NCBI RefSeq assembly: GCF_023715895.1
Contig: NZ_JAMBOO010000008.1
Coordinates: 62,001 to 126,000, forward strand
Direction: 5' to 3'
From: Domibacillus indicus
Lineage (GTDB): Bacteria > Bacillota > Bacilli > Bacillales > Domibacillaceae
Length of the DNA: 64,000 nt
Shown here: in pieces, positions 689 through 13,660 of the stretch
How positions within the stretch are numbered: position 1 is the first letter of the stretch
How the letters are laid out: each line of letters begins with the position of its first letter
Position numbers and translations under genes: made by a program
Notes under the pieces: generated by a model
The model's database searches: none
What the model was told of the DNA's origin: nothing
Seen by the model: the letters and a program-made list of their open reading frames with translations, nothing else

Positions 689-703
689 CAAATCACCGCC
701 TTA

Positions 704-862: not shown

Positions 863-1770
863 TATTGTTTGCCGAATGGAAGATCTTCTTCAGCAATATC
901 AATCGTGTCAAAATTGATATCCTTTGCTGATGGTTTCTTAGTTTCTTTTGCCGTTGATTGTTCAACTGGTGCTTCTTGCTGTTCCTCCTGCAGCTCAATG
1001 AGCTCAGGCTGTACATCGATTATTTCACTCATATCCGGCGCAATCTCTTTCTTAATGGTTGAATCAGCTTCAACCGTCTTTTGAAATTCAATTGATTTTG
1101 GAGCGTATTTAAGTACTTCCTTCAACACTGTTTTCTTTGCCATCGCGTCATAGTTTGTTTTCCAAGGGCTTGTCCAGCCTTTTTGAACAGCCTGGCTAAA
1201 TTTCTTAGCATGCTGATCAATGCGTTCACGCGTCCAATAGACAAAATCAAAACCGCCGTTCTGTAAGTGGTACACTGCGTAATAGCCAATTGGTTCACCT
1301 TCTGGAACACTGGCAGGAATATGTTTTAAATCTTTATACAGACCATATTCAAAAGTTAATTCATCATTTGGATATACTTCATGTGCATAGATCGCTTTGT
1401 ATTGGCCGCTTCGTACTGCTAAATCGATTAACCCTTTATAGGAAAGCTGGAATTGCACCTGCTTGCCGTATGGGATTAAATACGCCTGGCCAAGTCCTGT
1501 GTTCGGTTCAACGCCCAGCTGGGCCGACTGCATAAGTGCTGCAAGAAAAGACATCTGATCGCATTCAAGAAGCTTTGGTGTAGTACGGACAGCAGTTAAA
1601 GCAATACGCGCCATCCGATCGGCATCCATGTGTTTAGGAAGAGCCCGCTGAATTTCAGGGCCCATCCGTTTTAGTAAACCGTTCAACTGCTGTTCAGGTG
1701 CTACCTGTTTAGCCGGCGCATTCTGCTGTTTCTTGGCCAGTTCGTTTTTCATTGTGCTGTTTGTTGCCAC
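862..1770 (-). CDS. recT: RecT/YqaK family single-strand annealing recombinase
   Basis: RecT-type proteins bind single-stranded DNA and promote annealing and strand invasion together with a partner exonuclease. The 302-aa product has the normal family length. The family core is visible: LLKRMGPEIQRALP near the start, CDQMSFLAALMQSAQLGVEP, then GQAYLIPYGKQVQFQLSYKG, which is the most diagnostic RecT stretch. The C-terminus is acidic and low in complexity, as usual. The N-terminal 30 residues are Gln/Lys/Ala-rich. The gene follows the YqaJ exonuclease gene by 14 bases, so the two form the expected recombination pair in the early operon. Confidence 0.95.
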   Translation of the reverse strand: MATNSTMKNELAKKQQNAPAKQVAPEQQLNGLLKRMGPEIQRALPKHMDADRMARIALTAVRTTPKLLECDQMSFLAALMQSAQLGVEPNTGLGQAYLIPYGKQVQFQLSYKGLIDLAVRSGQYKAIYAHEVYPNDELTFEYGLYKDLKHIPASVPEGEPIGYYAVYHLQNGGFDFVYWTRERIDQHAKKFSQAVQKGWTSPWKTNYDAMAKKTVLKEVLKYAPKSIEFQKTVEADSTIKKEIAPDMSEIIDVQPELIELQEEQQEAPVEQSTAKETKKPSAKDINFDTIDIAEEDLPFGKQ

Positions 1771-1784
1771 AGTAAAACCTCCAG

Positions 1785-2756
1785 TTATTTAATTTTGAAA
1801 GGACGGGAAATGCTTTGTTTGGCGTATGCTTCGTAAATTTCCGGTTGTTCTTTCTTGAGACGGGCGGAATCAATTCGGTTTGAAACCTGTGCTTTCCAGG
1901 TAATCTTCTGATCACCGATAAAAGCTGTTTCGTTTTCTTTCATGGCATCTTTCAAAACGTTTTGGCATTCAGCCATTTTCAGCTCAATCGCTTTTTTATC
2001 TGCTTCCAACGCTTTATATGAGTCAATGTAGACCTGTAGATCAGTCGTCAAATTGATAGAAGTTCCTGGTTCATGCTGCGGATACAGAGCCTTAAGCAAG
2101 TCACTTGAAGCAGTTGTTCCATCGAATGGTGGTGGATTATTGGCCAAAACATGGTTTTCCCAAAACTCTTTTTCAATATTGATGAGATAATCAATCAGCT
2201 CCTCATCACGTTCAATTCGTTTATGGATGAATTTATTGCCACCGACTAATACGGCAATCCACCAGGCTTCATATCCGGTTACGGCCATGTAATGCTGGCA
2301 CTGCAGCAAATAGGAAGCTGGAATTTCGTCGCCTTCCCACTCTCCTTTTAAAAACTCAGAAGCTGTTTTACATTCAAGTCCCTCTTTTTTGCCAGCAATG
2401 AGTCGGTCTACATTGGCATAAATGAAATCATGTTCTGGATGCTTCAGAATAGCGTTGCGCCGGCGTACTTTTAAGCCAGTACGGCGGGAAAACTCCTGGG
2501 CAACCAGGCCTTCGTTTAAGACCCCGAAATAGGCTGCTTCACTACCATCTTCAAATCCACCCTGCTCGTTCACCGTAAAGATCTCTTCTGACTCAATTTG
2601 ATTCGTTTTTTCCAAATACACCTTCATCGGTGAACTGTACTTATTGACGCCGGCGATCGCAGCACAATCACTGCCGCCAATGCCATTGCGTCTTGCCATA
2701 AGCCAGTCATGCCGGGATAGATCGACTGTTGAAATGGCACCCATGTTCTTTGCCAA
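1785..2756 (-). CDS. YqaJ-type phage exonuclease (recombination partner of RecT)
   Basis: YqaJ proteins are PD-(D/E)xK-fold alkaline-exonuclease relatives that resect double-strand ends and feed single strands to RecT. The product of about 323 residues has the N-terminal signature RRNGIGGSDCAAIAGVNKY and an EGLECKTAS stretch holding the catalytic E-x-K, with FIYANVDRLI supplying the preceding Asp. The C-terminal third is helical and charged (ALEADKKAIELKMAEC). The frame is open from a GTG at 2765, but the site AAGGGAG lies against that codon; the TTG at 2756 has normal spacing, and an ATG at 2744 is also possible. It lies directly upstream of recT. Confidence 0.9.
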   Translation of the reverse strand: MAKNMGAISTVDLSRHDWLMARRNGIGGSDCAAIAGVNKYSSPMKVYLEKTNQIESEEIFTVNEQGGFEDGSEAAYFGVLNEGLVAQEFSRRTGLKVRRRNAILKHPEHDFIYANVDRLIAGKKEGLECKTASEFLKGEWEGDEIPASYLLQCQHYMAVTGYEAWWIAVLVGGNKFIHKRIERDEELIDYLINIEKEFWENHVLANNPPPFDGTTASSDLLKALYPQHEPGTSINLTTDLQVYIDSYKALEADKKAIELKMAECQNVLKDAMKENETAFIGDQKITWKAQVSNRIDSARLKKEQPEIYEAYAKQSISRPFKIK

Positions 2757-2792
2757 ATTCTTCACTCCCTTGATTGATTTTTTGAAGTACAG

Positions 2793-2853
2793 TACAATGT
2801 TCTTAATGAAATATTTTTAAACAGTCGACTCCTGCTCTAACAGGAGTCTTTTT
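2793..2853 (+). other. Hairpin element A with plus-strand T tract (related to element B)
   Basis: A perfect 8-bp stem (GACTCCTG / CAGGAGTC, 2827-2848) with a six-base loop is followed by TTTTT on the plus strand, opposite to the early operon. A TACAAT hexamer lies at 2793. The loop region TGCTCTA and the preceding ATTTTTAA are shared with the element at 3199-3256. It fills the gap between yqaI-like and yqaJ. It could be a plus-strand terminator or a structured intergenic element of the leftward transcript. Confidence 0.45.
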
Positions 2854-3071
2854 CATGCTTCCGCTTGTTTTTCGGATGCGTTCAAATACTGGACTGCATA
2901 TTCAGCAAGATTTTGCTCCAATACAACTGAGCCATCTTTCATGACAAAGTAGATGTCGTTGCTCATGATTTCGTCACCGAAAATGTCTTCCACTGGATAA
3001 TTAGATTCACGTTCTTGAAAATGTTCCGGAAAGCCAGTCCGTTCAATTTGCTGGATAAGTGGATGATCCAT
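2853..3071 (-). CDS. YqaI-like small phage protein, 72 aa
   Basis: The product resembles the small YqaI protein found next to yqaJ in the B. subtilis skin element: an N-terminal MDHPLIQQIERTGFPE, then an FGDEI motif around residue 32 and a C-terminal helical part VVLEQNLAEYAVQYL. Its function is unknown. The start follows an AGAAAGAAGG ribosome site. A strongly structured RNA segment lies just upstream (3090-3184), and a hairpin begins at its stop codon. Family assignment rests on remembered sequence resemblance and on gene order (yqaI-yqaJ-recT), so it is likely but not certain. Confidence 0.7.
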   Translation of the reverse strand: MDHPLIQQIERTGFPEHFQERESNYPVEDIFGDEIMSNDIYFVMKDGSVVLEQNLAEYAVQYLNASEKQAEA

Positions 3072-3089
3072 TTTGTTTACCTTCTTTCT

Positions 3090-3184
3090 GATGGAAGATG
3101 TCCATCAACAGCGGCCGGAACTTTCAACAGGTACAGGGGGAAACCCGTTCCGGTCGCCGTTGACGAGCACCGAAGTGCCCATCG
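3090..3184 (-). ncRNA. Strongly structured phage RNA, possibly C4-like
   Basis: On the minus strand the segment folds into a hairpin capped by a C(UUCG)G tetraloop (GCAC/GTGC, 3167-3178). A 17-bp stem follows, pairing 3147-3163 with 3105-3121 with one A-C mismatch and one G-U wobble, and its terminal loop contains GGGTTTCCCCC. A third hairpin (GATGGA/TCCATC, 3090-3106) ends just before the ribosome site of the YqaI-like gene. The stable UUCG loop forms only on the minus strand, which fixes the orientation. Layout and location resemble C4 antisense RNAs of phages, but that name is from memory and unverified. Confidence 0.55.
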
Positions 3185-3198
3185 AAAAAAATATATGG

Positions 3199-3256
3199 TA
3201 TAATGTTTTTAACGACACCGACGTCTGCTCTAGCCAGCAGGCGTTATTTTTTTTGG
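3199..3256 (+). other. Hairpin element B with extended -10 and T tract on the plus strand
   Basis: An extended -10 (TGGTATAAT, hexamer at 3199-3204) is followed after 16 bases by a 9-bp stem (ACGTCTGCT / AGCAGGCGT, 3221-3244, one wobble) and a run of eight T at 3247-3254. Read on the plus strand this would specify an RNA of only about 45 nt, antisense to the early operon. It shares TTTTTAA, CGAC and TGCTCTA blocks with element A. The alternative is a leftward intergenic element after the 40-aa gene. Confidence 0.45.
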
Positions 3257-3366
3257 TCTTCTTTATACCGATCCCACACAGGCCGTGTCACCCAGGCCAT
3301 TGCCCAAATACTGATTCCCATGATTGTTAAAAGAATTGTTTGTGCTGCATCAAACACCCAAAACAT
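3244..3366 (-). CDS. 40-aa single-pass membrane peptide of the phage early operon
   Basis: The short frame starts at an ATG preceded by GGTGAG at normal distance and ends in a run of lysines. The product MFWVFDAAQTILLTIMGISI is followed by WAMAWVTRPVWDRYKEDQKK. That is one hydrophobic membrane span (about residues 3-27) and a positively charged tail, so the C-terminus probably stays in the cytoplasm. No family is recognised. It lies between the XRE regulator and the structured RNA. Small membrane peptides in this position may affect host or superinfecting-phage functions, but nothing in the sequence shows this. Confidence 0.55.
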   Translation of the reverse strand: MFWVFDAAQTILLTIMGISIWAMAWVTRPVWDRYKEDQKK

Positions 3367-3474
3367 GACGTTTGCTCACCACTTTCGCTGGAATGTTTTT
3401 TTGATTTAATCGAATGACCATTCTCCCAACCTTTGTATATGGTTGGCGTCGCTTCCTTGGCTTGTCCTTCTTCT

Positions 3475-4017
3475 TCACGCTTCAACCCAGCCTTTTGCTT
3501 TTATTCGGGTCAGTGTCTCATCTCTAACCTGTTTCGGGTTGATAAGATACGCTTCATGCAGATGACGCCGAAAGTTTGCTGCAGCCATTTCCATTTCATT
3601 CAATTCGATGATCAAATCCTTTAACCAATCCTTTTCAGCTTTACTGGCTTCGTTAGGAGGCTTGCACCAGTCAAATTCCTCTGAATTTATTCGTCCATAG
3701 ACATCTGTCCATTCCTTGAGTAAAAAATGCTTGAATGACAACCGGTGCTGCTCGATGGCTTTGCCTCTCAAGACTGGTGAGGTAAAGCCGTTACTGAACT
3801 CGAAGATCAGGTCCATCACGAAAGCCGGACAGTCGTTAAACACATTGATTGCTCTTTTGGCAATATCCCTTTGCAATGGGCGCCGGTCATTTTTTATGTG
3901 ACTGCCCATCTGCGGGGAAACACCTATGTCGAACGAAAGCTGATTCACTGACACCCCCTCTTCTTCGATTAATCGTTCGAATATTTCTCCCGCATTGATT
4001 GATTTTTTGATGTCCAT
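3475..4017 (-). CDS. XRE-type helix-turn-helix phage regulator, 180 aa
   Basis: Residues about 15-60 form a lambda-repressor-like helix-turn-helix: FERLIEEEGVSVNQLSFDIG then VSPQMGSHIKNDRRPLQRD. The remaining 120 residues are helical with many Trp, Glu and Lys (LKEWTDVYGRI, EEFDWCKPPNEASKAEKDWL) and have no known fold that I can name. The frame is open to an ATG at 4062, but the ATG at 4017 has a good site (GGGGGTG, 9-base gap) and is preferred. It lies downstream of the cro-like and excisionase-like genes, so it is probably an early-lytic regulator or antirepressor. Confidence 0.7.
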   Translation of the reverse strand: MDIKKSINAGEIFERLIEEEGVSVNQLSFDIGVSPQMGSHIKNDRRPLQRDIAKRAINVFNDCPAFVMDLIFEFSNGFTSPVLRGKAIEQHRLSFKHFLLKEWTDVYGRINSEEFDWCKPPNEASKAEKDWLKDLIIELNEMEMAAANFRRHLHEAYLINPKQVRDETLTRIKAKGWVEA

Positions 4018-4092
4018 AAGCTGACACCCCCATCTTTTGTATTTAATTGTAGCTTTCTTCATACATTTCAGTGCTTTACTGTAAAAGAAAGG

Positions 4093-4293
4093 TTATGCTG
4101 ATTCTTCACCAGCGAGCCAAGCGTCGATTTCATCAAGGTTAAATAAAAACACTTGAGGTGAAATTTTTCGGTGCGGGATGGTTTTTGCTTTCACCCCGCG
4201 GTATAAAGCTGTGAGCGCGATGTCAACGCCGATTTCATTAAAATACTTGTGCAGGTTCTTCACGCCAGTGACGACTCTTGCTTTTGTTTTCAT
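4093..4293 (-). CDS. Excisionase-like (HTH_17/MerR-type) DNA-binding protein, 66 aa
   Basis: The small product has the winged-helix pattern of excisionase-like proteins: a helix-turn-helix (residues about 15-35, FNEIGVDIALTALYRGV), then KAKTIPHRKISPQVFLFNLD and the closing EIDAWLAGEES. The IPHRKI...F.LDEID.WL ending is the most telling part. The start has a strong AAGGAGG site. It is the second gene of the leftward early operon. It could direct excision with the integrase or regulate transcription; the sequence does not separate these. Confidence 0.75.
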   Translation of the reverse strand: MKTKARVVTGVKNLHKYFNEIGVDIALTALYRGVKAKTIPHRKISPQVFLFNLDEIDAWLAGEESA

Positions 4294-4403
4294 TGTGTGT
4301 TCCTCCTTAAAATGATGTGTTTAGATGTTACTCTTACTTAAATGGCAGCAATTTTTACCGTACTGGGAAGGTAAGACCATAAAGTTCCTCCCTACCTGAT
4401 CTA

Positions 4404-4628
4404 TTAAGAACTCCTCTCCAAAACTTCACGTATTGCATAGTGTTTAGGTAAAAAAATTTCATCTTTCTCACAACCGTATAATTTTGCGATCTCATCTGCG
4501 CGTTTTGAATCGATTTGTCGCTGGCCGTTTTCAATTTGGGAAAGGTAACCTCCCGAGATATTCAACTCTTTAGCTGCACCTTCTACGGTAAAACCAGCGG
4601 CAATTCTAGCCTTCTTAGGCAAACTCAC
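4404..4628 (-). CDS. Cro-like XRE repressor, 74 aa
   Basis: Almost the whole product is one XRE helix-turn-helix domain: KKARIAAGFTVEGAAKELNI, SGGYLSQIENGQRQIDSKRA, then DEIAKLYGCEKDEIFLP. The GTG start at 4628 is preceded by AGAGGTGA. It is the first gene transcribed leftward from the divergent switch and faces the CI-type gene, so by layout it is the Cro-type partner of the genetic switch. It should compete for the operators at 4657-4764. Confidence 0.85.
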   Translation of the reverse strand: MSLPKKARIAAGFTVEGAAKELNISGGYLSQIENGQRQIDSKRADEIAKLYGCEKDEIFLPKHYAIREVLERSS

Positions 4629-4656
4629 TTTAATTCACCTCTTTCTCAATTCGAAA

Positions 4657-4764
4657 ACTTTGCATATCGTGTTGCTTGTTTTCATGTTACAACGCATAAC
4701 GCAAAGTGTCAACGCATTTTGCAAAGTTATTTGTTTTTTTCTTTATATTCGCATTTTGCAAAGT
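4657..4764. promoter_or_regulatory. Four repressor-operator repeats in the lysis-lysogeny switch
   Basis: Copies of the motif CGCAttttGCAAAGT occur at 4693-4707, 4713-4727 and 4750-4764, with a fourth, inverted copy (ACTTTGCATATCG) at 4657-4669. The 4750 copy touches the -10 (TATAAT, 4764-4769) of the rightward repressor promoter. The 4693 copy lies between the -35 and -10 of the leftward promoter. This is the expected arrangement for binding by the CI-type and Cro-type proteins. Confidence 0.85.
4684..4712 (-). promoter_or_regulatory. Leftward early promoter
   Basis: The minus strand reads TTGACA (4712-4707), a 17-base spacer and TAACAT (4689-4684). The -35 is perfect and the -10 matches at four of six positions. 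An operator repeat fills the spacer, so a bound repressor would block polymerase. The promoter would serve the cro-like gene and the early operon. Confidence 0.7.
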
Positions 4765-4801
4765 ATAATGGATTTATATAGAAATTAGGAGGATCATTGC
4801 T

Positions 4802-5248
4802 ATGTTCGGTAATCGATTACGGGAACTTAGAAAAGAAAAAAAATTAACTATGAAGGAACTAGGGAAAAAATTCTCCCTTGCTGAGTCCACCATTTCTGGA
4901 TATGAAAATGGAAATCGAAAACCCGACAGCGAAATGATCAATGCGTTTGCTGACTTTTTCGAAGTTTCTACCGATTACTTGTATGGAAGAACAGATAAAA
5001 GAAAGATTGATAATAATACTGAGCTTCCTGAACTGACTGCTAAAGATGAACGGGATATTTTAAGAGACCTCGAAAAAATCATTAATAATCTTGAAAGCAA
5101 AGATGGTCTGGCAAGTTTTGATGGTCATACTCTGGATGACATGGATGAGGAAGATCGTGAACTGCTAATTGCTTCACTTGAAAATTCCATGCGCTTAGCA
5201 AAACGCATGGCAAAACAAAAATTTACACCTAAGAAACACCGTAAATAG
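4802..5248 (+). CDS. CI-type XRE repressor of the prophage, 148 aa
   Basis: An N-terminal XRE domain (residues about 5-62) is clear: LRELRKEKKLTMKELGKKFS, AESTISGYENGNRKPDSEMI, then ADFFEVSTDYLYGRTDK. The remainder is helical and acidic, ending in a very basic tail (AKRMAKQKFTPKKHRK). It lacks a LexA-type Ser-Lys protease domain. The next gene encodes an ImmA-type protease, so induction probably works by external cleavage as in ICEBs1/phi105-type systems. The ribosome site is TTAGGAGG. A TATAAT at 4764 overlaps an operator, which suggests autoregulation. Confidence 0.9.
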   Translation: MFGNRLRELRKEKKLTMKELGKKFSLAESTISGYENGNRKPDSEMINAFADFFEVSTDYLYGRTDKRKIDNNTELPELTAKDERDILRDLEKIINNLESKDGLASFDGHTLDDMDEEDRELLIASLENSMRLAKRMAKQKFTPKKHRK

Positions 5249-5260
5249 GAGTGGAGAATT

Positions 5261-5704
5261 ATGTCGGACATCAAAGTCACGGTACAAAATTTAATTAAAA
5301 AACATAACACCAGCGATCCTTTTACGATTGCAGAACAAAACGGCATTCTCCTCTCCTACGAAGCTTTAGGGAATATATTGGGTTATTTCAGCAGCTATAA
5401 AAGGGTTAATTTTATTCATATTAATAATAAATTAAACGAGCATGGCCAACGTTTTGTATGTGCTCATGAACTGGGTCACGCCCTTCTACACCCTAAAACG
5501 AACACCTCATTTTTGAAGAGAAAAACGTTATTCTCTATTGATCGTATGGAAGTTGAAGCAAATACCTTTGCTGTGGAACTTCTTCTTCCAGATGAAAAAA
5601 TAAAAGAATATTCAAATGAACATCTTACTCTCTACCAAATTGGCGAAATGCATGGTGTCCCACGAGAAATTGTTTCGCTTAAAACGGTAGAGTCATTTTT
5701 TTAA
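5261..5704 (+). CDS. immA: ImmA/IrrE-family metallopeptidase
   Basis: ImmA proteins cleave the phage or ICE repressor and so lift repression. The zinc site is seen as CAHELGHALLHP (HExxH, residues about 67-71) with a downstream VEANTFAVELLLP supplying the third acidic ligand. Its 147 residues fit the short ImmA form of phi105/ICEBs1. It begins 12 bases after the repressor gene with a GGAGTGGAG site, so repressor and protease are one operon. The substrate is inferred from neighbourhood, not seen. Confidence 0.9.
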   Translation: MSDIKVTVQNLIKKHNTSDPFTIAEQNGILLSYEALGNILGYFSSYKRVNFIHINNKLNEHGQRFVCAHELGHALLHPKTNTSFLKRKTLFSIDRMEVEANTFAVELLLPDEKIKEYSNEHLTLYQIGEMHGVPREIVSLKTVESFF

Positions 5705-5770
5705 ATTTTTTACTGGAACATTTTTCTCAAAATGTATTAAGTTAACTAGGAATGAGAGGAGATAAGAAAA

Positions 5771-6217
5771 ATGAAAAAACATTTGTTCGCAGGAATTATT
5801 TTCTTGTCAGCTTCTCTTATCTTAACTGGTTGCAATGATGACAGTTCATCAAAAATGACTGCCTCCGATGAAGAGCGATTGAAAAAGGAAGCCCAAGTAC
5901 TTGATTACACTACAATGTCCGAGAGTGGAATTGAAGAAGAAACTAAAGTTGTAATTGAAGGCGTTGTAACGTCTGCGGATAACTACGTTAATAATGATGT
6001 TATTCCGGCTCGCACACAGTTTAGACTAGAAAAGAATGATGATTCTATTCATTACTGGGTTGAAAACGTCTCAGATGACCGGTTTAAATTAAATTCTTAT
6101 ATCAAAGTATACGGAATCTATAAAGGTATTGATCCTGACAGCTTGGTGCCAGTTGTTGAAGGGCAAGTAGTAGAGATAGTTGATGAAGATGTTACTGATG
6201 ACAATGAAGGTTCTTAA
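5771..6217 (+). CDS. Prophage-encoded lipoprotein with OB-fold-like domain
   Basis: The first 21 residues form a lipoprotein signal (MKKHLFAGIIFLSASLILTG) with lipobox LTGC, so the mature protein should be lipid-anchored outside the membrane. Residues about 50-135 have the strand pattern of the tRNA_anti-like/OB-fold proteins (VVIEGVVTSADNY, FRLEKNDDSIHYWVENV, YIKVYGIYKGI). The ribosome site is GAGAGGAGAT. After the stop the same frame stays open for 26 more codons (6218-6295), possibly a lost C-terminus. Phage-carried lipoproteins often modify the lysogen's surface; a role in exclusion is inference. Confidence 0.75.
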   Translation: MKKHLFAGIIFLSASLILTGCNDDSSSKMTASDEERLKKEAQVLDYTTMSESGIEEETKVVIEGVVTSADNYVNNDVIPARTQFRLEKNDDSIHYWVENVSDDRFKLNSYIKVYGIYKGIDPDSLVPVVEGQVVEIVDEDVTDDNEGS

Positions 6218-6362
6218 AGAACAAATCTTACTGATTTTGAAGGTGCTGTACTCTTTCGCAAGGAGTTTGAAGCGCAGAAGAAGAAGCTGTTTTCTTGATA
6301 AATCAAACAAAATTAGATCATCAAAAACAAATTTACATATATGAAGAAAAGAGGTTAATATA

Positions 6363-7541
6363 ATGGCAAACTTGCGTCATACATACACATCCCCACTTTT
6401 GAGAAACTTTGAAATTCAAGATTTAAAGAGTTTCCTCCCTGAGTATATAGACGATTTCACAAAAAAACTTACCAACCAAACAGGTGATAATGGCTGGTAT
6501 AAAATTTCTGAAGTTTTAAATGAGTTTATTCAAAATGATGAGAATGCTGATAACGAAATTGATAAAATATTGTTTGAAAAGTTATTCTTCAACTTACAGG
6601 ATCATGTTCATCTTTTTCATCTTGAAAGTGACATCAACGCAGATGAATTTGTTAGCAGGTTTCAAGACCGTTCCGTTTTCCTTAGTAAGTTAAGTACTCT
6701 AACTCAATCAGAAGATAAACTTATTTCTTTAAGAAGAGATGGCAACAAAATTTTCTTGTTGTATAAATACGATACTATTACTCTAGGTTCAACTGGACAA
6801 AGGTCAAACTTTTATATCCCCTGCATGCTAGATTTTGAAAATTCACTTTTTCAAATTAGACTAAGGAAACATTACATTACTTCATCACCATACAAACATA
6901 ATGATCTTCTGACAAATATCAAAAGCTATGTGAACGAATTAGATGGGGATATTTCGATCCACTCTTATAATGAAACACACATTTATAATCTTATTTATTC
7001 AATTTTCAAGGAAGAATCAGAAAACGCTGAAAAGATTATTAAACAAAGCATGAATGATGATCTTACAGAAGAAATAGTTGATCAGAAAATAATAGATTTT
7101 CTTGCAGATCAACTTGCAATGTCAAACCCAGAAGGCTATTCTGATAGAGTAAAGTCAGCTTTTTATCAAGACCTTTCTGTGCATATGGATCCTTCTACAT
7201 TTCATGATGGGTTTATTTCTGCATTTACATTCTTGGATAAAAATTTTATTAAATCATCAACGAGAAGTCCAAGAAGAGATCCAATTTATAACTCTAAAGT
7301 ATACTGGAATCTTAAAGATTTAATTCATGAGTACGAAGAAGTATCTGAACTAGCTTGTTTTTGGAAGTTTAATGAAGCTAACTTTGATGCTCATCCTGAA
7401 GGAAATGAATTCGAGTTTGTCGAAGTAGCATTAAGAGAAAGAAATGGATCCATTGAAATTCAATACTATCAGAGTCCTAATGAGAAAAGGAGGTTGAAAG
7501 AGGAATATGTTTATTACAGAATTAAAAGGCATTTACTCTAA
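6363..7541 (+). CDS. Unknown cassette protein A, 392 aa (prophage cargo)
   Basis: First gene of an AT-rich three-gene cassette between the repressor operon and the integrase. The product is soluble, with no signal or membrane segment. The first 110 residues are helical and acidic (LKSFLPEYIDDFTKKL). Residues about 125-185 look beta-rich (NKIFLLYKYDTITLGS, FYIPCMLDFENSLFQIRL). A second helical half follows, ending with a basic strand-rich tail (SIEIQYYQSPNEKRRLKEE). I do not recognise a family or catalytic motif. The start has an AAAGAGG site. Its last 35 bases overlap the next gene, which argues for coupled expression. Confidence 0.8.
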   Translation: MANLRHTYTSPLLRNFEIQDLKSFLPEYIDDFTKKLTNQTGDNGWYKISEVLNEFIQNDENADNEIDKILFEKLFFNLQDHVHLFHLESDINADEFVSRFQDRSVFLSKLSTLTQSEDKLISLRRDGNKIFLLYKYDTITLGSTGQRSNFYIPCMLDFENSLFQIRLRKHYITSSPYKHNDLLTNIKSYVNELDGDISIHSYNETHIYNLIYSIFKEESENAEKIIKQSMNDDLTEEIVDQKIIDFLADQLAMSNPEGYSDRVKSAFYQDLSVHMDPSTFHDGFISAFTFLDKNFIKSSTRSPRRDPIYNSKVYWNLKDLIHEYEEVSELACFWKFNEANFDAHPEGNEFEFVEVALRERNGSIEIQYYQSPNEKRRLKEEYVYYRIKRHLL

Positions 7542-8100
7542 TAAACCATTTTTAAGTAATATTGTTCCTTATCATGAAATTGCACCTCAGTTAGAGCTGT
7601 TTATCAATCAAGAAGTTCGTCTCGGATCGAGATATTTAAATCCTTACCGTTTTGCATTTAAATTTGGGTATAACCCTAAAGATATCATCAATCTTTTTAT
7701 TGCCTTCTCTTCTAAGGGTGGACCATTAAAAAGGTTCTATAGATTTGAATGCGGTGAGTGTGAAGAATTACATCTATTAGACGATGATCAATTTAAGAAT
7801 CTTAAATGCCCTGAGTGTGGGTATGATGGAGATATAGAAAATATCGATTTTTTAGATAATGTCAAGGTGGTTTTCGAAATTAAAGAGCCATTTTTGAAAG
7901 AAGTGCAACGCCGTTTAAAAGATCAAGCCTCCTCTGAAAGAAAAACAAAACTGAAACCGCAAAAAACGAGCGATTCAGAGGAGGCATCCCTAAAATCTGT
8001 AATGGATTCTACTGATGCTGCTAACGAAAGTCCTGATGAGGATTTCACAGAAATGATTAAACAAGTCAAATCTCGATTATCTTCAGGTTTAAGAAAATGA
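7507..8100 (+). CDS. Unknown cassette protein B with zinc ribbon, 197 aa
   Basis: The start ATG lies inside the end of gene A in another frame, after AAAGAGGAAT. Residues about 1-75 are mixed and uncharacterised. Residues about 81-103 hold a CxxC-x16-CxxC pair (CGEC ... CPEC), a probable zinc ribbon. A beta-rich segment FLDNVKVVFEIKEPF follows, then a charged, probably flexible tail with many Ser, Glu and Lys and a final helix TEMIKQVKSRLSSGLRK. The stop overlaps the start of gene C by four bases (ATGA). A zinc ribbon suggests nucleic-acid or protein contact; the actual function is unknown. Confidence 0.8.
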   Translation: MFITELKGIYSNKPFLSNIVPYHEIAPQLELFINQEVRLGSRYLNPYRFAFKFGYNPKDIINLFIAFSSKGGPLKRFYRFECGECEELHLLDDDQFKNLKCPECGYDGDIENIDFLDNVKVVFEIKEPFLKEVQRRLKDQASSERKTKLKPQKTSDSEEASLKSVMDSTDAANESPDEDFTEMIKQVKSRLSSGLRK

Positions 8101-8747
8101 TTTCTAAATTTTTTTCAAAACCGGCATTTATTTTTATTTCGTTCTTGTTCTTTGTATCTCTAACTTTAAGTTTTATTATAATTTTAATTTTAATAAACAA
8201 AAAAGTTTTAATTGATTCATCTAGTTTTGACTTTATGCAAATGTTAGTTCGTTCGTCTTTTACATTAATTGGTGCTGCCATATCTGCCGGGATCGCATTA
8301 TTGATATTCACATTACAGCAAAATAGAATAGAATACGATAAGAACGAGCTTCAAGATTTGTATATAGCAAAGATTAAAGATGAGCATTCAAATAATTTAG
8401 AGGTTTTAAAAAATCTCGAAGAAGCCATAGCTCCATTTGAAAATCCTCCTCTGGCAAAAATGCTACTAATGACTAAACAAGAGGAAAAAAATGAATTAAA
8501 GGAATTCATCCTAATCTACTATACCCAATTAGATTTTTCTATGTTCGATTCCTTATTTAAGGATATAAGGATCACTGATAAGGACAATATTATGCTTTTA
8601 ACAGACGTTAGAAAGCTAAAGTTAATTAATAAATATTTAAAATTAATTTTAGAAGAAGTTACTCAAGTAGACCCATTAGAAAAATTATTAAGTTTACTTA
8701 AAGATGATCTAGCACAAATTCCAAACCCTCCCTCTTCTCCTTCGTGA
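8097..8747 (+). CDS. Unknown cassette protein C, two-pass membrane protein, 216 aa
   Basis: Two membrane spans are clear: about residues 8-32 (FIFISFLFFVSLTLSFIIIL) and 47-72 (LVRSSFTLIGAAISAGIALL). The remaining 140 residues are helical, charged and probably cytoplasmic (NELQDLYIAKIKDEHSNN, KNLEEAIAPFENPP). Translation is coupled to gene B through ATGA. Codon use is strongly AT-rich, unlike the host genes after 10.3 kb. The stop codon lies within the stem of the cassette terminator. A membrane effector at the end of a coupled cargo operon is a common layout in phage-defence systems, but no family is recognised here. Confidence 0.8.
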   Translation: MISKFFSKPAFIFISFLFFVSLTLSFIIILILINKKVLIDSSSFDFMQMLVRSSFTLIGAAISAGIALLIFTLQQNRIEYDKNELQDLYIAKIKDEHSNNLEVLKNLEEAIAPFENPPLAKMLLMTKQEEKNELKEFILIYYTQLDFSMFDSLFKDIRITDKDNIMLLTDVRKLKLINKYLKLILEEVTQVDPLEKLLSLLKDDLAQIPNPPSSPS

Positions 8748-8763
8748 GTAGAGGCTTTTTTTT
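8731..8763 (+). terminator. Terminator of the lysogeny/cassette operon
   Basis: CCTCTTCTC pairs with GAGTAGAGG (one T-T mismatch) around a CTTCGT loop and is followed by a C and eight T. The stop codon of the membrane-protein gene sits in the stem. The operon from the repressor through the cassette would therefore end here, before the integrase gene. Confidence 0.75.
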
Positions 8764-9002
8764 AAAAATTTACCTATGCGTATAACGTGTATGATCCGTC
8801 CCTCTTGCTGGACGTTCACAAAGCCTTTTTGTATTCGTCAGCAAATTGAATACTACTCCCTTTTCATAAAAGCTTAAAATGAGATGAAAGAATGCTTCTT
8901 TTGCCTAGTCTGGAACATTTGGATTTATGACGGATTTTTCATCATAATAAGGTAAAATAAAACTAACAAGAATCTTTACTCAAGAAGAAAGGAGATGCTC
9001 TA
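8764..9002 (+). other. Non-coding gap before the integrase gene
   Basis: No convincing ORF is present on either strand. The segment before the integrase is AT-rich, with TAAAAT at about 8953 as a possible -10, and ends in the ribosome site AAAGGAG. It may hold integrase arm sites, but no clear repeats were found. Confidence 0.5.
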
Positions 9003-10154
9003 GTGTCGAGTTATATTGTTTTAGATAAGAAGAACCCGGCTGATAAGTCCGAGCTCCCTCGTATAAAGATAACCGTTGAGTTAGGTTATGATGAGCGCGG
9101 TAAACGGATCCGGCGTAAAAAGACGGTTTCACTCAAAACTCTTTCAGATCGTGCTATTAAAAAGGCGATTACCGAATTTGAAATTGAAGTAGCAACTAGC
9201 GGCCCGGTTGATACAAATAATCTTAAATACCGGGAAGCAGTTGCTTTGTGGCTCGAGAACCATGTATCCCACCTCTCTTTCCAATCACAAAAAGCATATG
9301 AGCAGAACATCCAGCCTGCAGTTGAGTTTTTTGGAGACATAAAGCTGAAGGATTTGAAGAAGTTTCATATTGTCGAGTTTATGAACCATTTAACAGCTTT
9401 AGATGAAAAGTCTGCTGATTATAAAATGAAGATGAACCGCTTGATGCTGCAAAAAATGGTTGAGTGGGATTTGATGTCCGAAAACGTCGCGGCCACTGTT
9501 AAGAAGAAAAAAGAGGCCAGGAAAGAAATGCTCTTCTATAGTGAGCAGGAAGTAAAGCAGCTGTTTGAACTGCTTGAAGAAGCTATGCCGAAGCACCGGC
9601 TGGTTATCAAGATGGCTGTTCTTTCCGGTATGCGTCTTGGTGAGATTCTAGGCTTAACAATGGAGAATGTAAACTTCTCGGATAATACGATCACAGTTAA
9701 GCACACACTGGTTCACGATACGAAGAAAGACATCTATTACCTGGGCGCTCCTAAAAATAAGAAAAAGCGTATCATCCCAATGCCAGCTGACTACATGGCT
9801 GAGCTGCGCGGTTATATTAAAGAAGTGAAAAAGAATCGGCTAGCGTATGGATCTGAATGGCGAGGAATTGAAGGAATGGATTTGATCTTCTGCCGGCCGG
9901 ATGGATACCCGCACCTTCCACAGTCGTTTCTAAAATATTTTCACACCTTTACAGAGAACCACGGCATGAAGCGAATTCGATTTCATGATCTTCGCCACAC
10001 CCATGCTTCCCTTTTATTATCGAAAGGTGTTAATATTAAAGTCATTCAAGAACGGATGGGTCACAGTACAATCACATTGACCATCGACACATATTCACAT
10101 TTAACGAAGGAAAACGAACAAGAAGCAGTTACAAAATTAACGAGCATCTTTTAA
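9003..10154 (+). CDS. int: Prophage tyrosine integrase
   Basis: Site-specific recombinase for integration and excision, 383 aa, the usual length. The N-terminus (residues about 15-55) is an arm-binding, AP2-like domain (ITVELGYDERGKRIRRKK). A SAM-like core-binding domain follows (LKYREAVALWLENHVS). The catalytic domain has the first Arg in SGMRLGEILGL, a Lys in GAPKNKKKRIIPMP, the HxxR in FHDLRHTHASLLLSKG, the second His in GHSTITLTIDTYSH and the Tyr there. The start is GTG after AAAGGAG. It is the last phage gene before the host boundary. Confidence 0.95.
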   Translation: MSSYIVLDKKNPADKSELPRIKITVELGYDERGKRIRRKKTVSLKTLSDRAIKKAITEFEIEVATSGPVDTNNLKYREAVALWLENHVSHLSFQSQKAYEQNIQPAVEFFGDIKLKDLKKFHIVEFMNHLTALDEKSADYKMKMNRLMLQKMVEWDLMSENVAATVKKKKEARKEMLFYSEQEVKQLFELLEEAMPKHRLVIKMAVLSGMRLGEILGLTMENVNFSDNTITVKHTLVHDTKKDIYYLGAPKNKKKRIIPMPADYMAELRGYIKEVKKNRLAYGSEWRGIEGMDLIFCRPDGYPHLPQSFLKYFHTFTENHGMKRIRFHDLRHTHASLLLSKGVNIKVIQERMGHSTITLTIDTYSHLTKENEQEAVTKLTSIF

Positions 10155-10314
10155 CGTTTTTTATTCTTTGGTCCCCTTTCGGTCACCTAAAACAAAAAAT
10201 ACCACTAAAAAACGCTAGAAACCCTTGATTTATAAGGGTTTCTATTTTTATGTCCAGATAACTATAGATTATATGGAATATACATAATCATTTTACGGTA
10301 AAGGACTGAAAAAC
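10155..10314 (+). other. Probable attachment-site junction region
   Basis: The 160 bases after the integrase contain a pair of related GGTCcCC / GGTCACC blocks (10172-10188) and the palindrome AGAAACCCTT / AAGGGTTTCT. The prophage-host junction should be in here because the integrase is the last phage gene and 10315 starts a host-like gene. The core overlap cannot be identified without the other end of the prophage. Confidence 0.45.
10216..10249 (+). terminator. Terminator after the integrase (or att-associated palindrome)
   Basis: TAGAAACCCTT and AAGGGTTTCTA form a perfect stem with loop GATTTAT, followed by TTTTTA. It suits rho-independent termination of int. Palindromes of this kind next to integrases can also belong to the attachment site. 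Confidence 0.65.
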
Positions 10315-11394
10315 ATGAATCTGCCGGCGATTTTGGCCTCACACGAAGCGTTTTTGCAGCTGCTTCAATCAAAAGAGCATATGCTTGATGAAGAGCGCAA
10401 CTTGTCTCTTGCCCACTGTACAGACGAAGAATTTTTAGAGTATTTTTTTGCGATCGGCCTTTTAAAAGAAAATCGGACGTTTTCTCCGCACACGATCAAG
10501 GCGTATCGAAGTGATGCGAAAACGCTTCTTTCTTATCTTTCTTACCATAATCTTGAATTCCGTGCGATTGGCTTTCCGGAGGTTAAAGCCTTTAACCGGT
10601 TTATTATTAGTACATACAAGCCAAAAAGCGCCCTGAGAAAATTAGAATTTTTCCGCCGTTTTCTTGAATTCGGTTTTCATACGCATTTCTATACCGCCCA
10701 GCTGTCGGTTTGGATTCAAAAACCGCGCGTTCAAAAAGGACACACAGCGGAAACAAGCGAAAACCGGACCGTCATGCGCGAGCTGTCTTCACAGGAAGCA
10801 CGCCATATTATCGACTGCTTTGCAAAAACGATTAAAACGACGAAAAATGCAGAAGCGATTGAAGCCCGCAACCGGCTGATCGGGATGATGCTGTTGACAC
10901 TTGGCATCCGCGCTTCTGAATTGATCGGGTTAAATTGGGGAAGTTTCCGGCGCAGCCGGCAGGGTGATTTGTTGGTAGATGTGATAGGAAAAGGCGGAAA
11001 AGAACGGACTCTTCCAATTATGAGAGAAACCGAGTCTCTTCTTTTTCATTATCGAAGTGTATGCGGCGAAACAACGGAACTTCAGCCCCATTCAGCCGAG
11101 CCGCTTTTTTATGCCCTGTACAATAAAACCGATATACATGCAGATAAAAAAAGACTTTCCTACGCCGCTTTGTACAAGCTTGTAAAAAAAGCCGTCGAAG
11201 CTGCCGGGAGCCGGTCCGATGTCAGCCCTCACTGGTTCCGGCATACATTTGTCACAAATTTGCTTGAACAGGATGTTCCGCTTGCTGTTGTAAAAGATCT
11301 GGCAGGACATTCAGATATTTCCATTACCAATCTTTATTTAGAGCGAATTCAAGAAGATCGCATGCATCATCACCTCCAAAATATCCGTTTTTAA
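10315..11394 (+). CDS. XerC/D-like tyrosine recombinase, probably chromosomal
   Basis: The 359-aa product has a core-binding domain (residues about 45-130, ENRTFSPHTIKAYRSDAKTL) and a complete catalytic domain: Arg in LGIRASELIGLNWG, Lys in DVIGKGGKERTLPI, HxxR in SPHWFRHTFVTNLLEQ, His in AGHSDISITNLYLE with the Tyr. It differs strongly from the phage integrase and lacks the AP2-like domain. Base composition is like the host genes that follow. It may be a stand-alone chromosomal recombinase or an older integrase. The start follows AAAGGACTG; a bidirectional terminator lies after it. Confidence 0.85.
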   Translation: MNLPAILASHEAFLQLLQSKEHMLDEERNLSLAHCTDEEFLEYFFAIGLLKENRTFSPHTIKAYRSDAKTLLSYLSYHNLEFRAIGFPEVKAFNRFIISTYKPKSALRKLEFFRRFLEFGFHTHFYTAQLSVWIQKPRVQKGHTAETSENRTVMRELSSQEARHIIDCFAKTIKTTKNAEAIEARNRLIGMMLLTLGIRASELIGLNWGSFRRSRQGDLLVDVIGKGGKERTLPIMRETESLLFHYRSVCGETTELQPHSAEPLFYALYNKTDIHADKKRLSYAALYKLVKKAVEAAGSRSDVSPHWFRHTFVTNLLEQDVPLAVVKDLAGHSDISITNLYLERIQEDRMHHHLQNIRF

Positions 11395-11465
11395 GCATGC
11401 TTGAGATTCGCTTTCTCGCGCATCAAGAAACGGTTAGATGAATAACTGTCCGGCTCGATGCAAAT

Positions 11466-11497
11466 AAAAACAGCACTCATTTTGAGTGCTGTTTTTC
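11466..11497. terminator. Bidirectional terminator between recombinase and MBL hydrolase
   Basis: AAAAACAGCACTCA and TGAGTGCTGTTTTT form a long stem with T runs on both strands. It ends the rightward recombinase gene and the leftward hydrolase gene, whose stop codon lies in the stem. Confidence 0.85.
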
Positions 11498-12403
11498 CTT
11501 ATAATGGATCATCCCTTGGGCGCTGACTCTGAGATCAATAGCAAGCAGTTCATAAACTGGATGATCATTCTCAACTCCGGCTTGTTCGAGCTGTTCGCGG
11601 ACTTTTTGCATGAGTACCGTCTCGATCTCTTCGACCGTGCTGTTTTTTTCCAAAACCTGCATATACACATCAAGCCAGTTCAAAACCATGTTTGCAGCTT
11701 GCTTCGGCTGATCGTTCATTCCATAATGACTAAAGAAAAATCGTTCCGGATGAAAGGCCATCATTTTATCGATAGACTGCTTCATCAAATGCGGGTCAAA
11801 TTGGTTCGGTGAGCTAGTCGGCATAAAAAGCTCGATTTCTTTGTTTTTAAGCTGGGCATATTGAATACCTGCTGTGTCGCCGGTAAACATACCAGCCGAT
11901 TTTTCATCCCAGATCGAAAAGTGATGGTTCGCATGCCCTGGTGTATGAAGAAACCGCAGAATGCGGCCGCCAAGGTCAAGTTCGCCCCCGTCTTCTATTT
12001 CAATGATTCTTTCTTTCGGCACCGGCACAATCGGGTCGAATAATTCATCGAATTTTTCACCGTATACCATTTTTGCACTGGCAATCAGCCGGCTCGGATC
12101 TGCCAGGTGGCGGGCACCTTTTGGATGCACAACCAATTTTGCATTCGGGCAGGATTCCAAAAACAAGCCGGCGCCGCCTGCATGATCAAGATGAATATGC
12201 GTGACAATCACATAATCAATCTCTTCAAGCTGTATGTGGAGTTCCTTCAGTCCATCAAGTAAAAAAGGAACAGAAGGGCTGGCACTTGTTTCAATAATCG
12301 CTTTTTTCGGCTCGTGAAACACATAGCAGCTCGTCCGCTCTTCAAAACCGGAATCGTGTAAATCAATTAACGATAAGTCAAATCCTAATGAAACCGCCGT
12401 CAT
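11477..12403 (-). CDS. MBL-fold metallo-hydrolase, 308 aa
   Basis: Metallo-beta-lactamase-fold hydrolase. The metal ligands are visible as THIHLDHAGGAG (HxHxDH), HTPGHANHHFSIW, the Asp of MFTGDTAGIQ, and a final His in FFFSHYG. The substrate is not known; related Bacillus proteins are annotated as glyoxalase-like or lactonase-like hydrolases. No signal peptide is present, so it acts in the cytoplasm. It is transcribed separately from ilvE, whose terminator lies upstream. Confidence 0.85.
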   Translation of the reverse strand: MTAVSLGFDLSLIDLHDSGFEERTSCYVFHEPKKAIIETSASPSVPFLLDGLKELHIQLEEIDYVIVTHIHLDHAGGAGLFLESCPNAKLVVHPKGARHLADPSRLIASAKMVYGEKFDELFDPIVPVPKERIIEIEDGGELDLGGRILRFLHTPGHANHHFSIWDEKSAGMFTGDTAGIQYAQLKNKEIELFMPTSSPNQFDPHLMKQSIDKMMAFHPERFFFSHYGMNDQPKQAANMVLNWLDVYMQVLEKNSTVEEIETVLMQKVREQLEQAGVENDHPVYELLAIDLRVSAQGMIHYKEKQHSK

Positions 12404-12424
12404 TTTTTTGCCTCCTTTTGAAAC

Positions 12425-12456
12425 GAAACGAACTGCCCGAGGGAGCAGTTCGTTTC
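12425..12456 (-). terminator. Terminator-like hairpin after ilvE
   Basis: GAAACGAACTGC and GCAGTTCGTTTC form a perfect 12-bp stem with an eight-base loop, 18 bases after the ilvE stop. The T tract on the minus strand is weak (GTTTC), so termination may be partial. Confidence 0.6.
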
Positions 12457-12474
12457 ATCCGTACAGTATAGGAA

Positions 12475-13560
12475 TTATTTTGAAACGGGAACTTCCGTTA
12501 CCCATCCAAACTCGTCTTTGATCTTGCCTTTTTGAATGCCTGTAATCGTATCGTAAATACGTTTTGACAATTCACCTGTCTGGCCGTCGTTTAGCACCAT
12601 TTTTTCTTCTTCCCATAAAAATTCACCAATTGGAGAAATAACCGCAGCGGTGCCTGTTCCAAAAGCTTCTTCCAATTTTCCGTCACGGTAAGCCTGTGCA
12701 ACTTCCTCAATGGAGATACGGCGTTCTGAAACCGGTACATTCCAGTGTTTTAAAAGCTGAATGACTGAGTCGCGAGTTACCCCGTGCAAAATGCTGCCGT
12801 TTAGCGCAGGTGTCACCACTTCCCCATCAATTTTAAAGAATACATTCATGCTGCCCACTTCTTCGATGTATTTTTTCTCCACACCATCAAGCCAGAGCAC
12901 TTGTGAGTATTCTTTCCCTGTGGCTGCTTCCTGCGCTTTTAAGCTGGATGCATAGTTCCCGCCTGTTTTCGCTTCACCTGTTCCGCCTTTTACCGCGCGG
13001 ACAAACTCATTTTCCACGAGAATTTTAACCGGCGCAATTCCTTCTTTGTAATACGAACCGACCGGCGACATGATAATCATGAAAATATAATTTTTCGATG
13101 GAGCAACACCTAAAAACGGTTCTGTAGCCACAATAAATGGACGGACATATAATGATGTGCCTTCCGCTGTCGGAATCCATTCCTGGTCTACCTCAATCAG
13201 CTTTTTTAACCCTTCAATTGCAAATTCACCATCAATTTGCGGAATGCAAAGACGTTCATTGGAGCGGTTTAAGCGTTCCATGTTTTTCTCCGGGCGGAAT
13301 AAAAAGACTTTTCCTTCATCCGTCAAATAAGCTTTCATTCCTTCGAATACCGTTTGTCCGTAATGGAACACCATAGCCGACGGATCAAGGGTAATCGGCT
13401 GGAATGGAACGATGCGCGCATCATGCCATCCTCTGCCTTCCGTGTAATCCATCATAAACATATGATCGGTAAAAAAACGGCCGAATCCAAGGTTGGATTG
13501 ATCCGGTTTTTCTCTTTTTGTGTCAGCTAATTGTACGGTTAATTCTTGTGTCATCTTCAA
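12475..13560 (-). CDS. ilvE: Branched-chain amino acid aminotransferase
   Basis: PLP enzyme that interconverts Ile, Leu and Val with their 2-oxo acids using glutamate. The 361-aa length and sequence match the longer, Bacillus YbgE/YwaA type of fold-IV aminotransferase. Landmarks are FHYGQTVFEGMKAY, RLNRSNERLCIPQ, the PLP lysine in GGNYASSLKAQ, and GTAAVISPIGEF near the end. The start has GAGGAG. A CodY-like box lies in the upstream region at 13625-13639, in line with known CodY control of the B. subtilis paralogues. Confidence 0.95.
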   Translation of the reverse strand: MKMTQELTVQLADTKREKPDQSNLGFGRFFTDHMFMMDYTEGRGWHDARIVPFQPITLDPSAMVFHYGQTVFEGMKAYLTDEGKVFLFRPEKNMERLNRSNERLCIPQIDGEFAIEGLKKLIEVDQEWIPTAEGTSLYVRPFIVATEPFLGVAPSKNYIFMIIMSPVGSYYKEGIAPVKILVENEFVRAVKGGTGEAKTGGNYASSLKAQEAATGKEYSQVLWLDGVEKKYIEEVGSMNVFFKIDGEVVTPALNGSILHGVTRDSVIQLLKHWNVPVSERRISIEEVAQAYRDGKLEEAFGTGTAAVISPIGEFLWEEEKMVLNDGQTGELSKRIYDTITGIQKGKIKDEFGWVTEVPVSK

Positions 13561-13624
13561 GGACTCCTCATGTGTAAAAATTAGTCAGCACAGGGGCTGA
13601 TGTATGTACTTCTTCTATCATACA

Positions 13625-13639
13625 ATTTTTTAGAATATT
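13625..13639. promoter_or_regulatory. Candidate CodY box upstream of ilvE
   Basis: ATTTTTTAGAATATT matches 12 of 15 positions of the CodY consensus AATTTTCWGAAAATT. It lies 65 bases upstream of the ilvE start and between the two divergent genes. CodY represses branched-chain amino acid genes in Bacillus when these amino acids and GTP are plentiful. Confidence 0.5.
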
Positions 13640-13660
13640 TTCACACTGTAAAATCAAATT

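Follow-up and report, generated by a model that had tools for sequence, protein, structure and literature searches.

What is the role of the three overlapping genes that a prophage of Domibacillus indicus carries between its repressor region and its integrase gene? The genes lie on the forward strand at 6363-8747 of a 64,000-nucleotide stretch of the genome (assembly GCF_023715895.1, contig NZ_JAMBOO010000008.1, positions 62,001 to 126,000; here called the window) and are referred to as A (6363-7541; 392 aa), B (7507-8100; 197 aa), and C (8097-8747; 216 aa). A preliminary description, made from the sequence of the window, gave these coordinates, lengths, and strand exactly and proposed that the genes form a defense or exclusion system. 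We put the chances at about even that they are a mobile anti-phage cassette of prophages and islands, acting by abortive infection or exclusion with a logic analogous to that of lambda RexAB. The argument for defense comes from the location of the cassette, its neighbors, and an exchange of the putative effector.

Conservation of the trio and of the A-B junction

The longest open reading frame (ORF) in 1,000 first-order Markov copies of the region was 132 aa, which excludes A, B, and C as chance ORFs. Relatives of A were found in 3 of 101 near genomes (the window's own included), in 7 of 397 genomes of the order searched with an A profile, and, among 398 genomes of the phylum, only in the window's own. 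Seven loci were found in GTDB contigs, five in viral contigs, and one degraded copy on a plasmid. Removal of repeats left 15 intact loci: the window, L004, L005 (the same as L008 and L015), L007, L009, L010 (the same as L003), L011, L012, L013, L016, L017, L018, L026, L027, and L030. Every one of these has B behind A and either C or a substitute behind B, the third gene being cut by the contig end in L004. The B profile matched all seven A-bearing genomes of the order, and these seven, of 397, were also the genomes with strong C-profile matches (8.5e-43 or better). An eighth C-profile match (2.8e-10, in genome G045) led to a further A-B-C locus, L100, which is out of reach of the A profile; thus, the family is wider than A-based counts suggest. 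When the L100 proteins were aligned with the family, hhalign gave 89.4% for A (P = 2.1e-6), 98.5% for B (P = 2.2e-15), and 95.3% for C (P = 2.2e-8). This very distant trio (4307-6671 of L100) stands amid ordinary chromosomal genes. A viral contig, L111, carries an A that is 59% identical to that of L100, plus B, and ends there. In total, 17 distinct loci have adjacent A and B genes. Of the 16 loci where the third gene could be assessed, 14 have C (cut in L004) and 2 have a SLATT-like gene; in L111 this gene lies beyond the contig. Identity to the window A falls to 21% (L026), and the A proteins of L100 and L111 are still further away.

Distance matrices of the proteins were strongly correlated (0.93 for A-B over 15 loci, 0.88 for A-C and 0.83 for B-C over 12 loci each), with 0 of 2,000 permutations as good in each case. 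Such a correlation measures shared ancestry and is not evidence of binding; it indicates that A, B, and C travel together. A-B-C is a conserved unit, and the co-occurrence that the preliminary description had proposed to look for, in other prophages and near defense genes, was found. For the remaining 16 C-profile matches (4.1e-6 to 9.9e-4), eight were opened (L089, L090, L091/L101, L092/L102, L093, L094, L096, and L098), and neither A nor B was recognized by eye in any of them.

Other searches gave the limits of this distribution. No A relative was found among INPHARED phages with the window, L026, L018, or L100 protein as the query, and there was no near DNA match there to window positions 5000-10200. 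Viral contigs yielded no new A relative with the L026 or L013 A, only known loci with the L018 A, and only its own locus with the L018 SLATT-like protein. No close A relative was present in eleven other genomes of the family of genome G156. The plasmid search returned a single record, the degraded copy, and nothing for the SLATT-like protein, C, B, or the L100 A. In that copy (L006, on plasmid NZ_CP064271.1 of Priestia megaterium), the N-terminal part of A is missing and B, split into two ORFs, has no zinc ribbon; a C-like ORF is kept. Among the titles and opening lines of abstracts in the open-licence literature, no description of the trio was found.

A and B overlap by 35 nt in the window, and B and C by 4 nt; both overlaps are as first described. 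The start codon of B (7507-7509) spans codons Y382 and V383 of A and is found at the same place inside A in all 17 loci. Its first two bases are the last two of one A codon, and its G is the first base of the following codon, an invariant valine codon. The two codons read TAT-GTN in 12 loci, TTT-GTN in 4, and CAT-GTA in 1, such that where A has Phe instead of Tyr (L011, L012, L013, and L018), B starts with TTG instead of ATG. Just upstream, a Shine-Dalgarno-like run is spelled by the codons of an R-(R/K)-x-K-E stretch of A; in the window it is AAAGGAGG at 7486-7493, inside the A codons for K-R-R. In each of 15 loci, a Shine-Dalgarno-like 5-mer is present 5 to 20 nt before the B start, compared with 799 of 16,710 positions (4.8%) in the same A genes, and the spacing of the best match to the B start is 3 to 14 nt. 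Both L100 and L111 have AAGGAGG at the same place in the junction. Of the codons for Lys, Glu, Arg, and Gln, 49 of 78 at the junction have G as their last base, as do 312 of 1,336 elsewhere in A (Fisher P = 8e-13, for sequences that are related and not independent). Part of the conservation of the A C terminus is thus due to the translation signals of B. The length of the overlap varies between 32 and 53 nt across loci because the tail of A varies while the B start is fixed. Of the earlier proposal that the genes are translationally coupled, the dual-coded start has proved to be conserved; the conserved junction supports coupling, which would constrain the ratio of A to B.

The three proteins and the replacement of C in one branch

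Searches were made against Pfam, NCBIfam 20.0, PHROGs, and PADLOC-DB 2.0.0 (2023). For the window A, B, and C, nothing exceeded a curated cut-off in Pfam or NCBIfam, and the best PHROGs match was only at E = 0.12; several relatives that were scanned likewise gave sub-threshold matches only. No PADLOC model recognizes A-B-C as a system. This agrees with the earlier description of a type not recognized. Among the families searched, none for virion, lysis, or replication functions matched A or B.

The hydropathy scan found no segment above threshold in A or B at 15 loci. Two hydrophobic regions are present in C; the second (8256-8318 in the window) has many small residues throughout the family (IGS/IGG) and is followed by a charged tail. 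B contains a zinc ribbon of the form CxxC-x15-CxxC (7750-7818; C82, C85, C101, and C104), in which the first three cysteines are invariant in 15 of 15 rows and C104 is kept in at least 90%. The picture of a soluble A, a zinc ribbon B, and a two-pass membrane protein C agrees with these data. A would then be the putative sensor component and C the putative effector.

B has a module in common with DUF5939, a region of class III adenylate/guanylate cyclases. The B profile matched a DUF5939 cyclase of genome G156 at 3.9e-9, and alignment of B with seven DUF5939 regions gave an hhalign value of 97.1% (P = 6.3e-11) over 104 columns that include both cysteine pairs. On these alignments, homology between B and the N-terminal module of DUF5939 extends over residues 1 to 129 of B. 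By pattern only, the module may be described as winged helix-turn-helix (wHTH)-like plus a zinc ribbon; PDB searches did not settle its fold. The cyclase that shares this module is a 617-aa protein with DUF5939 and guanylate cyclase domains (L060, 529-2382, on G156:C15), and its gene is followed by one that resembles a response regulator receiver. No paper on DUF5939, or on PDC-M14 (see below), was found in the open-licence literature.

At the N terminus of A from L100 and L111, and less clearly from L026, a SAP-like segment was first spotted by eye. Alignment of these three distant A proteins with four SAP segments, two of which are themselves below the Pfam cut-off, gave an hhalign value of 90.2% (P = 1.5e-6). 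No SAP match appeared in the Pfam scan of the window A or the L026 A. We tentatively regard the SAP-like segment of the distant A proteins as a lead rather than an established result; the window A shows no such segment. A sliding clamp was considered for A and rejected: the match to 7ybd (E = 0.026 with a 15-row A profile) was to a single clamp chain, a 13-row profile gave a different single match, and the hit was taken as chance.

A number of sub-threshold matches were set aside as noise or as a likeness of zinc ribbons or hydrophobic stretches: UPF0261, OXA beta-lactamase, and ATP synthase subunit h for the window A and C; the restriction alleviation protein Lar (2.8e-4) and PtuB (0.0076) for the L026 B; PD-Lambda-6 (0.0018) and CARF_2M (0.053) for the L026 C; Cas12u3 (0.011) for the L030 B; ZapG-like (4e-4) and DUF92 (1.7e-4) for some C proteins; and NuiA_2 (0.0035) for the L027 A. 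Some C members also have weak sub-threshold matches to Gly-zipper and BhlA holin families.

In L017 and L018, no C was found, and a protein of 152 to 153 aa stands in its place. This protein matched the PADLOC model "Effector, 2TM," which we take to be a model for the cyclic oligonucleotide-based antiphage signaling system (CBASS), at 6e-4 and 0.003, the model for the reverse transcriptase-associated SLATT protein at 0.0015 and 0.014, and Pfam SLATT_4, SLATT_1, and DUF4231 at 0.02 to 0.05. Alignment with two SLATT_4 proteins covered 93 columns over the transmembrane region (P = 0.0012), with an hhalign probability of only 19.6%. SLATT proteins are predicted to form pores in response to nucleotide signals, as stated in the portion of PMC7159879 that deals with them. 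In the A tree, L017 and L018 form one clade (support, 100/100), nested at weaker support (82/96) in a C-bearing branch; the B tree does not group the two. On the simplest reading of the A tree, C was replaced by the SLATT-like protein in a single event. The substitution of a SLATT-like protein for C behind the same soluble pair strengthens the earlier suggestion of a soluble sensor with a membrane effector. The idea that C is itself a SLATT protein was rejected: the window C did not match the SLATT profiles compared, and C is unlike the L017/L018 protein.

Other SLATT genes were seen in the course of these comparisons. In L044 (1456-2908), a gene recognized by eye as CD-NTase-like overlaps a SLATT_4 gene, whose protein served here as a reference. 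In two genomes (L048, 1465-2306; L049, 1459-2296), a DUF4231 (SLATT-type) gene directly precedes one judged by eye to be TIR-like, and this couple is a separate candidate defense pair.

Genomic neighborhoods and the host prophage

Genes outside the window were recognized by eye unless a library is named. Lysogeny modules (repressor, ImmA-like, or integrase genes) accompany the cassette at eight loci: the window, L004, L005, L010, L013, L016, L026, and L111. In two phage contigs, L017 and L018, the cassette follows a peptidase (lysin-like) gene and precedes recombinase and terminase genes, respectively. It is about 1 kb from a recombinase-ImmA-Mrr-repressor block in L009, adjoins an Mrr nuclease gene in L012, stands beside DndB and helix-turn-helix (HTH) genes in L007, and is next to an IS21-like pair in L030. 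In L027 it belongs to an island that also encodes PDC-M58A, a PDC-S02-like nuclease, and a type I methyltransferase. In L011 it lies about 0.5 kb behind the gene for transfer-messenger RNA (tmRNA), a common integration site; there, a smpB-like gene and the tmRNA gene (7095-7450) are followed just downstream by the cassette (7995-10434), and no integrase was recognized in the available stretch.

Ten neighbors were chosen by eye, and eight of them had PADLOC matches with E values of at most 0.01, including DndB (L007), Mrr-type nucleases (L009, L010, and L012), a DzbB-like protein (L017), and the three island proteins of L027. A broader scan at 1e-8 covered 109 of 152 listed neighbors, taken from roughly within 5 kb of 13 loci and not including the L027 methyltransferase. 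These neighbors matched 58 PADLOC models; PDC-M58A and PDC-M58B are among the 25 models listed. A control set of 110 proteins (of 125 listed, from eight 18-kb stretches of four genomes) matched 19 models, of which the AriA, GajA, PtuA, and RtcR-type matches were taken for general ATPases. The defense or exclusion function first proposed is supported in part, by a conserved unit, lysogeny modules, and defense neighbors at several loci; protection itself would follow from these by inference.

In the window, the cassette was said to lie between the repressor-ImmA operon and the integrase gene. This is correct, with the refinement that a lipoprotein gene intervenes: the order on the forward strand is repressor (4802-5248; Pfam HTH_3, 7e-14), ImmA/IrrE-type metallopeptidase (5261-5704; Pfam Peptidase_M78, 5.7e-24), lipoprotein (5771-6217; 148 aa), A, B, C, and tyrosine integrase (9003-10154; Pfam Phage_integrase, 8.9e-31). 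The lipoprotein, with a signal peptide and an LTGC lipobox read from the sequence, is outside the conserved trio and is separated from A by a 145-base gap; its best library match is phrog_9170 (E = 5.2e-6), of unknown function. A DUF4352 lipoprotein gene is in a comparable place in L005/L008. Lipoproteins in this slot of a lysogeny module can act as exclusion factors.

The cassette is AT-rich, as had been noted, with 31.1% GC compared with 43.4% for window positions 11001-64000. The single terminator reported at its end was also recovered as a terminator-like hairpin and T run (8731-8763): the hairpin (8731-8754; -9.3 kcal/mol) contains the stop codon of C and is followed by eight T residues. 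Compared with shuffled sequences, it has a z score of -2.13, and 6 of 200 shuffles were equally good. It is absent from the list of the consensus scan, probably because of one stem mismatch. A promoter-like match (6332-6361) lies directly 5' of A, in a region that has 19 such matches in total against 17.3 (standard deviation, 4.4) in shuffles. A single lysogenic transcript for the repressor region and the cassette is plausible from this arrangement. Rfam gave no RNA at the gathering threshold within window positions 1-14000.

Upstream of the window, contig C169 carries genes read by eye as terminase, head, sheath, tape measure, baseplate, holin, and amidase genes at 22 to 50 kb, which suggests that the host element is a prophage with a contractile tail and a length of about 50 kb. 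A 13-bp direct repeat, AGATAACTATAGA, occurs just outside the integrase gene (window 10256-10268) and near the far end of the prophage (C169 18086-18098); it is a possible attachment core, a 13-mer match being not far from chance. Directly beyond the integrase gene is a second tyrosine recombinase-like gene (window 10315-11394; 359 aa), recognized by eye. Among the prophage genes upstream of the window, a 215-aa protein with a hydrophobic N terminus (C169 51535-52182) is a possible second cargo gene product.

Relation to known systems and possible functions

The closest known counterpart in logic is RexAB of lambda. In both cases, prophage genes downstream of the repressor encode a soluble component and a membrane component, the sensor may bind DNA, and the protein ratio is likely to matter; the cassette also lies with the repressor on one strand, an arrangement that would suit expression in the lysogen. 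It differs in having three genes rather than two and in its zinc ribbon protein B. RexB is described with four transmembrane regions, compared with two in C. By sequence, neither A nor B belongs to the RexA family (no match of the window A or B to PF15969 at E = 1; hhalign against RexA, 0.1% each), and C does not belong to the RexB family (PF15968 was absent among the 19 families listed for 12 C members at E = 0.1; hhalign, 0.1%), while the positive controls, lambda RexA against PF15969 (1e-97) and lambda RexB against PF15968 (8.5e-92), were found. These sequence comparisons were made with the lambda proteins; RexAB-type systems are also described from P. putida P1, Sbash, CarolAnn, and Butters (gp30/gp31), the last being a further prophage pair of this type (PMC7542560). 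The cassette would be RexAB-like in logic, and by sequence it is not a RexAB member.

Other systems share single features. A SLATT-like protein in place of C at 2 of 16 loci recalls CBASS; however, no CD-NTase, SAVED, or SLOG gene was recognized in the cassette when the A and B proteins were scanned, and since it has no CD-NTase it is not CBASS. The L013 B matched an oligonucleotide cyclase model at 0.0065, over residues 174 to 210 only. With the DUF5939 cyclases, B shares an alignment of about residues 23 to 129, including both cysteine pairs; in contrast, it has no cyclase domain (197 aa, no PF00211 match), and a single-sequence Pfam scan gave no DUF5939 match for B. Judged from these alignments, B shares a domain, not an identity, with these enzymes. 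Lactococcal Sie2009 and SieF7/2AB, which were compared by location only, are likewise encoded between integrase and repressor genes, and SieF7/2AB also pairs a membrane protein with a zinc motif protein (PMC7693887). That zinc motif is metalloprotease-like, however, whereas that of B is a ribbon, and the cassette has three genes. Finally, PADLOC PDC-M14A matched the zinc ribbon region of B at E = 3.9e-4. B was rejected as a PDC-M14 protein: three of four strong PDC-M14A loci have a 261- to 269-aa neighbor unlike A (on the other strand in one), the fourth is truncated, and neither A nor C was seen by eye in any of six loci opened. The match most likely reflects a shared zinc ribbon only.

If the RexAB analogy holds, a lysogen would express A and B at a fixed ratio from one message. 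The two would form a cytosolic complex that recognizes a sign of infection, perhaps a nucleic acid, given the SAP-like segment in distant A proteins and the wHTH-like/zinc ribbon module in B. The complex would activate C, much as is proposed for RexA and RexB, and C would open or disturb the membrane so that the infected cell is stopped; in the L017/L018 branch, the SLATT-like protein would do the job of C. RexAB-type prophage systems are described in similar terms, as a DNA-binding sensor with a membrane-damaging effector sensitive to protein ratio, in the parts of PMC12894663 that treat them, and the integrase-repressor interval of lactococcal phages is a recognized place for exclusion genes in the corresponding text of PMC7693887.

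Several observations weigh against this reading. The matches of the L017/L018 protein to SLATT models, though consistent, are all below curated cut-offs where such exist, and each of the two SLATT-like proteins has a single segment, not two, that passes the threshold of the hydropathy scan. PDB profile searches with A gave nothing credible. The Pfam SAP model (PF02037) scored only 13 bits (E = 0.47) on the L100 A, a level at which it also matched 13 of 14 control genomes. No mobile or defense gene was recognized near L100, many of the models matched by neighbors are HTH or repressor types expected for any prophage, and the comparison of neighbors is crude, with a control unmatched for mobile DNA, such that it lends qualitative support only. 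In the literature, lysogeny module genes of Dub35A were without effect when cloned, in the experiments covered by the relevant part of PMC7693887. The passages of PMC12894663 on the Butters system describe the cytosolic partner, not the membrane one, as the effector, and the two-hybrid test they report for P. putida detected no RexA-RexB binding; the assumed division of labor between A-B and C is therefore not a given.

Two alternatives keep C at the membrane and change its purpose. In classical superinfection exclusion, C would block DNA entry with A and B as regulators or chaperones, and no cell would die. A location in the lysogeny module and a membrane component are typical of the lactococcal Sie systems (as presented in the part of PMC7693887 concerned with them), and a lipoprotein gene is next door in the window and in L005/L008. 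However, two large conserved soluble proteins exceed the apparent needs of an entry block, copies without a recognized prophage occur at L007, L027, and L100, and C can be replaced by a protein resembling a family predicted to form pores (PMC7159879, in the portion cited above). We hold this account to be unlikely, though it deserves to be kept in view. As a maintenance or addiction module, the genes would stabilize the prophage or island: C would be a toxin that A-B holds in check, and there would be no selected anti-phage role. The compact operon on mobile elements and a toxin-like membrane protein with a small-residue-rich hydrophobic region would fit; the bulk of A plus B, about 590 aa, does not, usual antitoxins being far smaller. 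That the degraded L006 copy keeps a C-like ORF after the loss of parts of A and B argues against a simple antitoxin role, although that C may be silent, and RexAB has a comparable layout and a role in defense (PMC12894663). We consider an addiction module improbable.

Control of the prophage life cycle, in which A-B-C would sense host state or DNA damage and tune ImmA cleavage of the repressor or induction, seems quite improbable to us. The same direction as the repressor and often the ImmA-like genes in several prophages, the HTH gene just upstream in L007, and a B module common to signaling cyclases speak for it; yet no adjacent repressor or ImmA-like gene was recognized at L027, L030, or L100, and the L017 and L018 cassettes are elsewhere in the phage genome. 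Disfavored most clearly, with very little chance of being right, is the idea that C is a holin and that the genes are accessories to lysis or the virion. Weak BhlA holin matches in 3 of 12 C members (best, 7e-5) speak for it; the cassette has no endolysin partner and lies on the strand opposite to the late genes as read by eye (C169, 22 to 50 kb), and neither A nor B matched a virion family of PHROGs or Pfam. The clear virion, lysis, or replication homology that had been named beforehand as grounds for refuting the defense proposal was not found.

Returning to the anti-phage reading, a stronger form of it can be proposed tentatively, and we think it somewhat doubtful as a whole: that the cassette represents a three-component class of prophage immunity, independent of RexAB and absent from the libraries searched, modular in build, with a nucleic acid-sensing pair, a stoichiometry locked by a start codon and ribosome site encoded in the C-terminal codons of the sensor, and exchangeable membrane effectors (C or SLATT). 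If this is true, it would add two families, one of sensors and one of membrane effectors, that the curated defense models searched do not recognize, connect a SLATT-like effector with a sensor outside the usual nucleotide signal enzymes, and document effector exchange within one cassette. The dual-coded A-B junction would be a clean example of coupling signals kept across very deep divergence. How lambda RexAB becomes activated is described as still unknown (PMC12894663). A transferable three-gene unit from Bacillaceae relatives would, if the proposal is correct, be a tractable second case beside RexAB.

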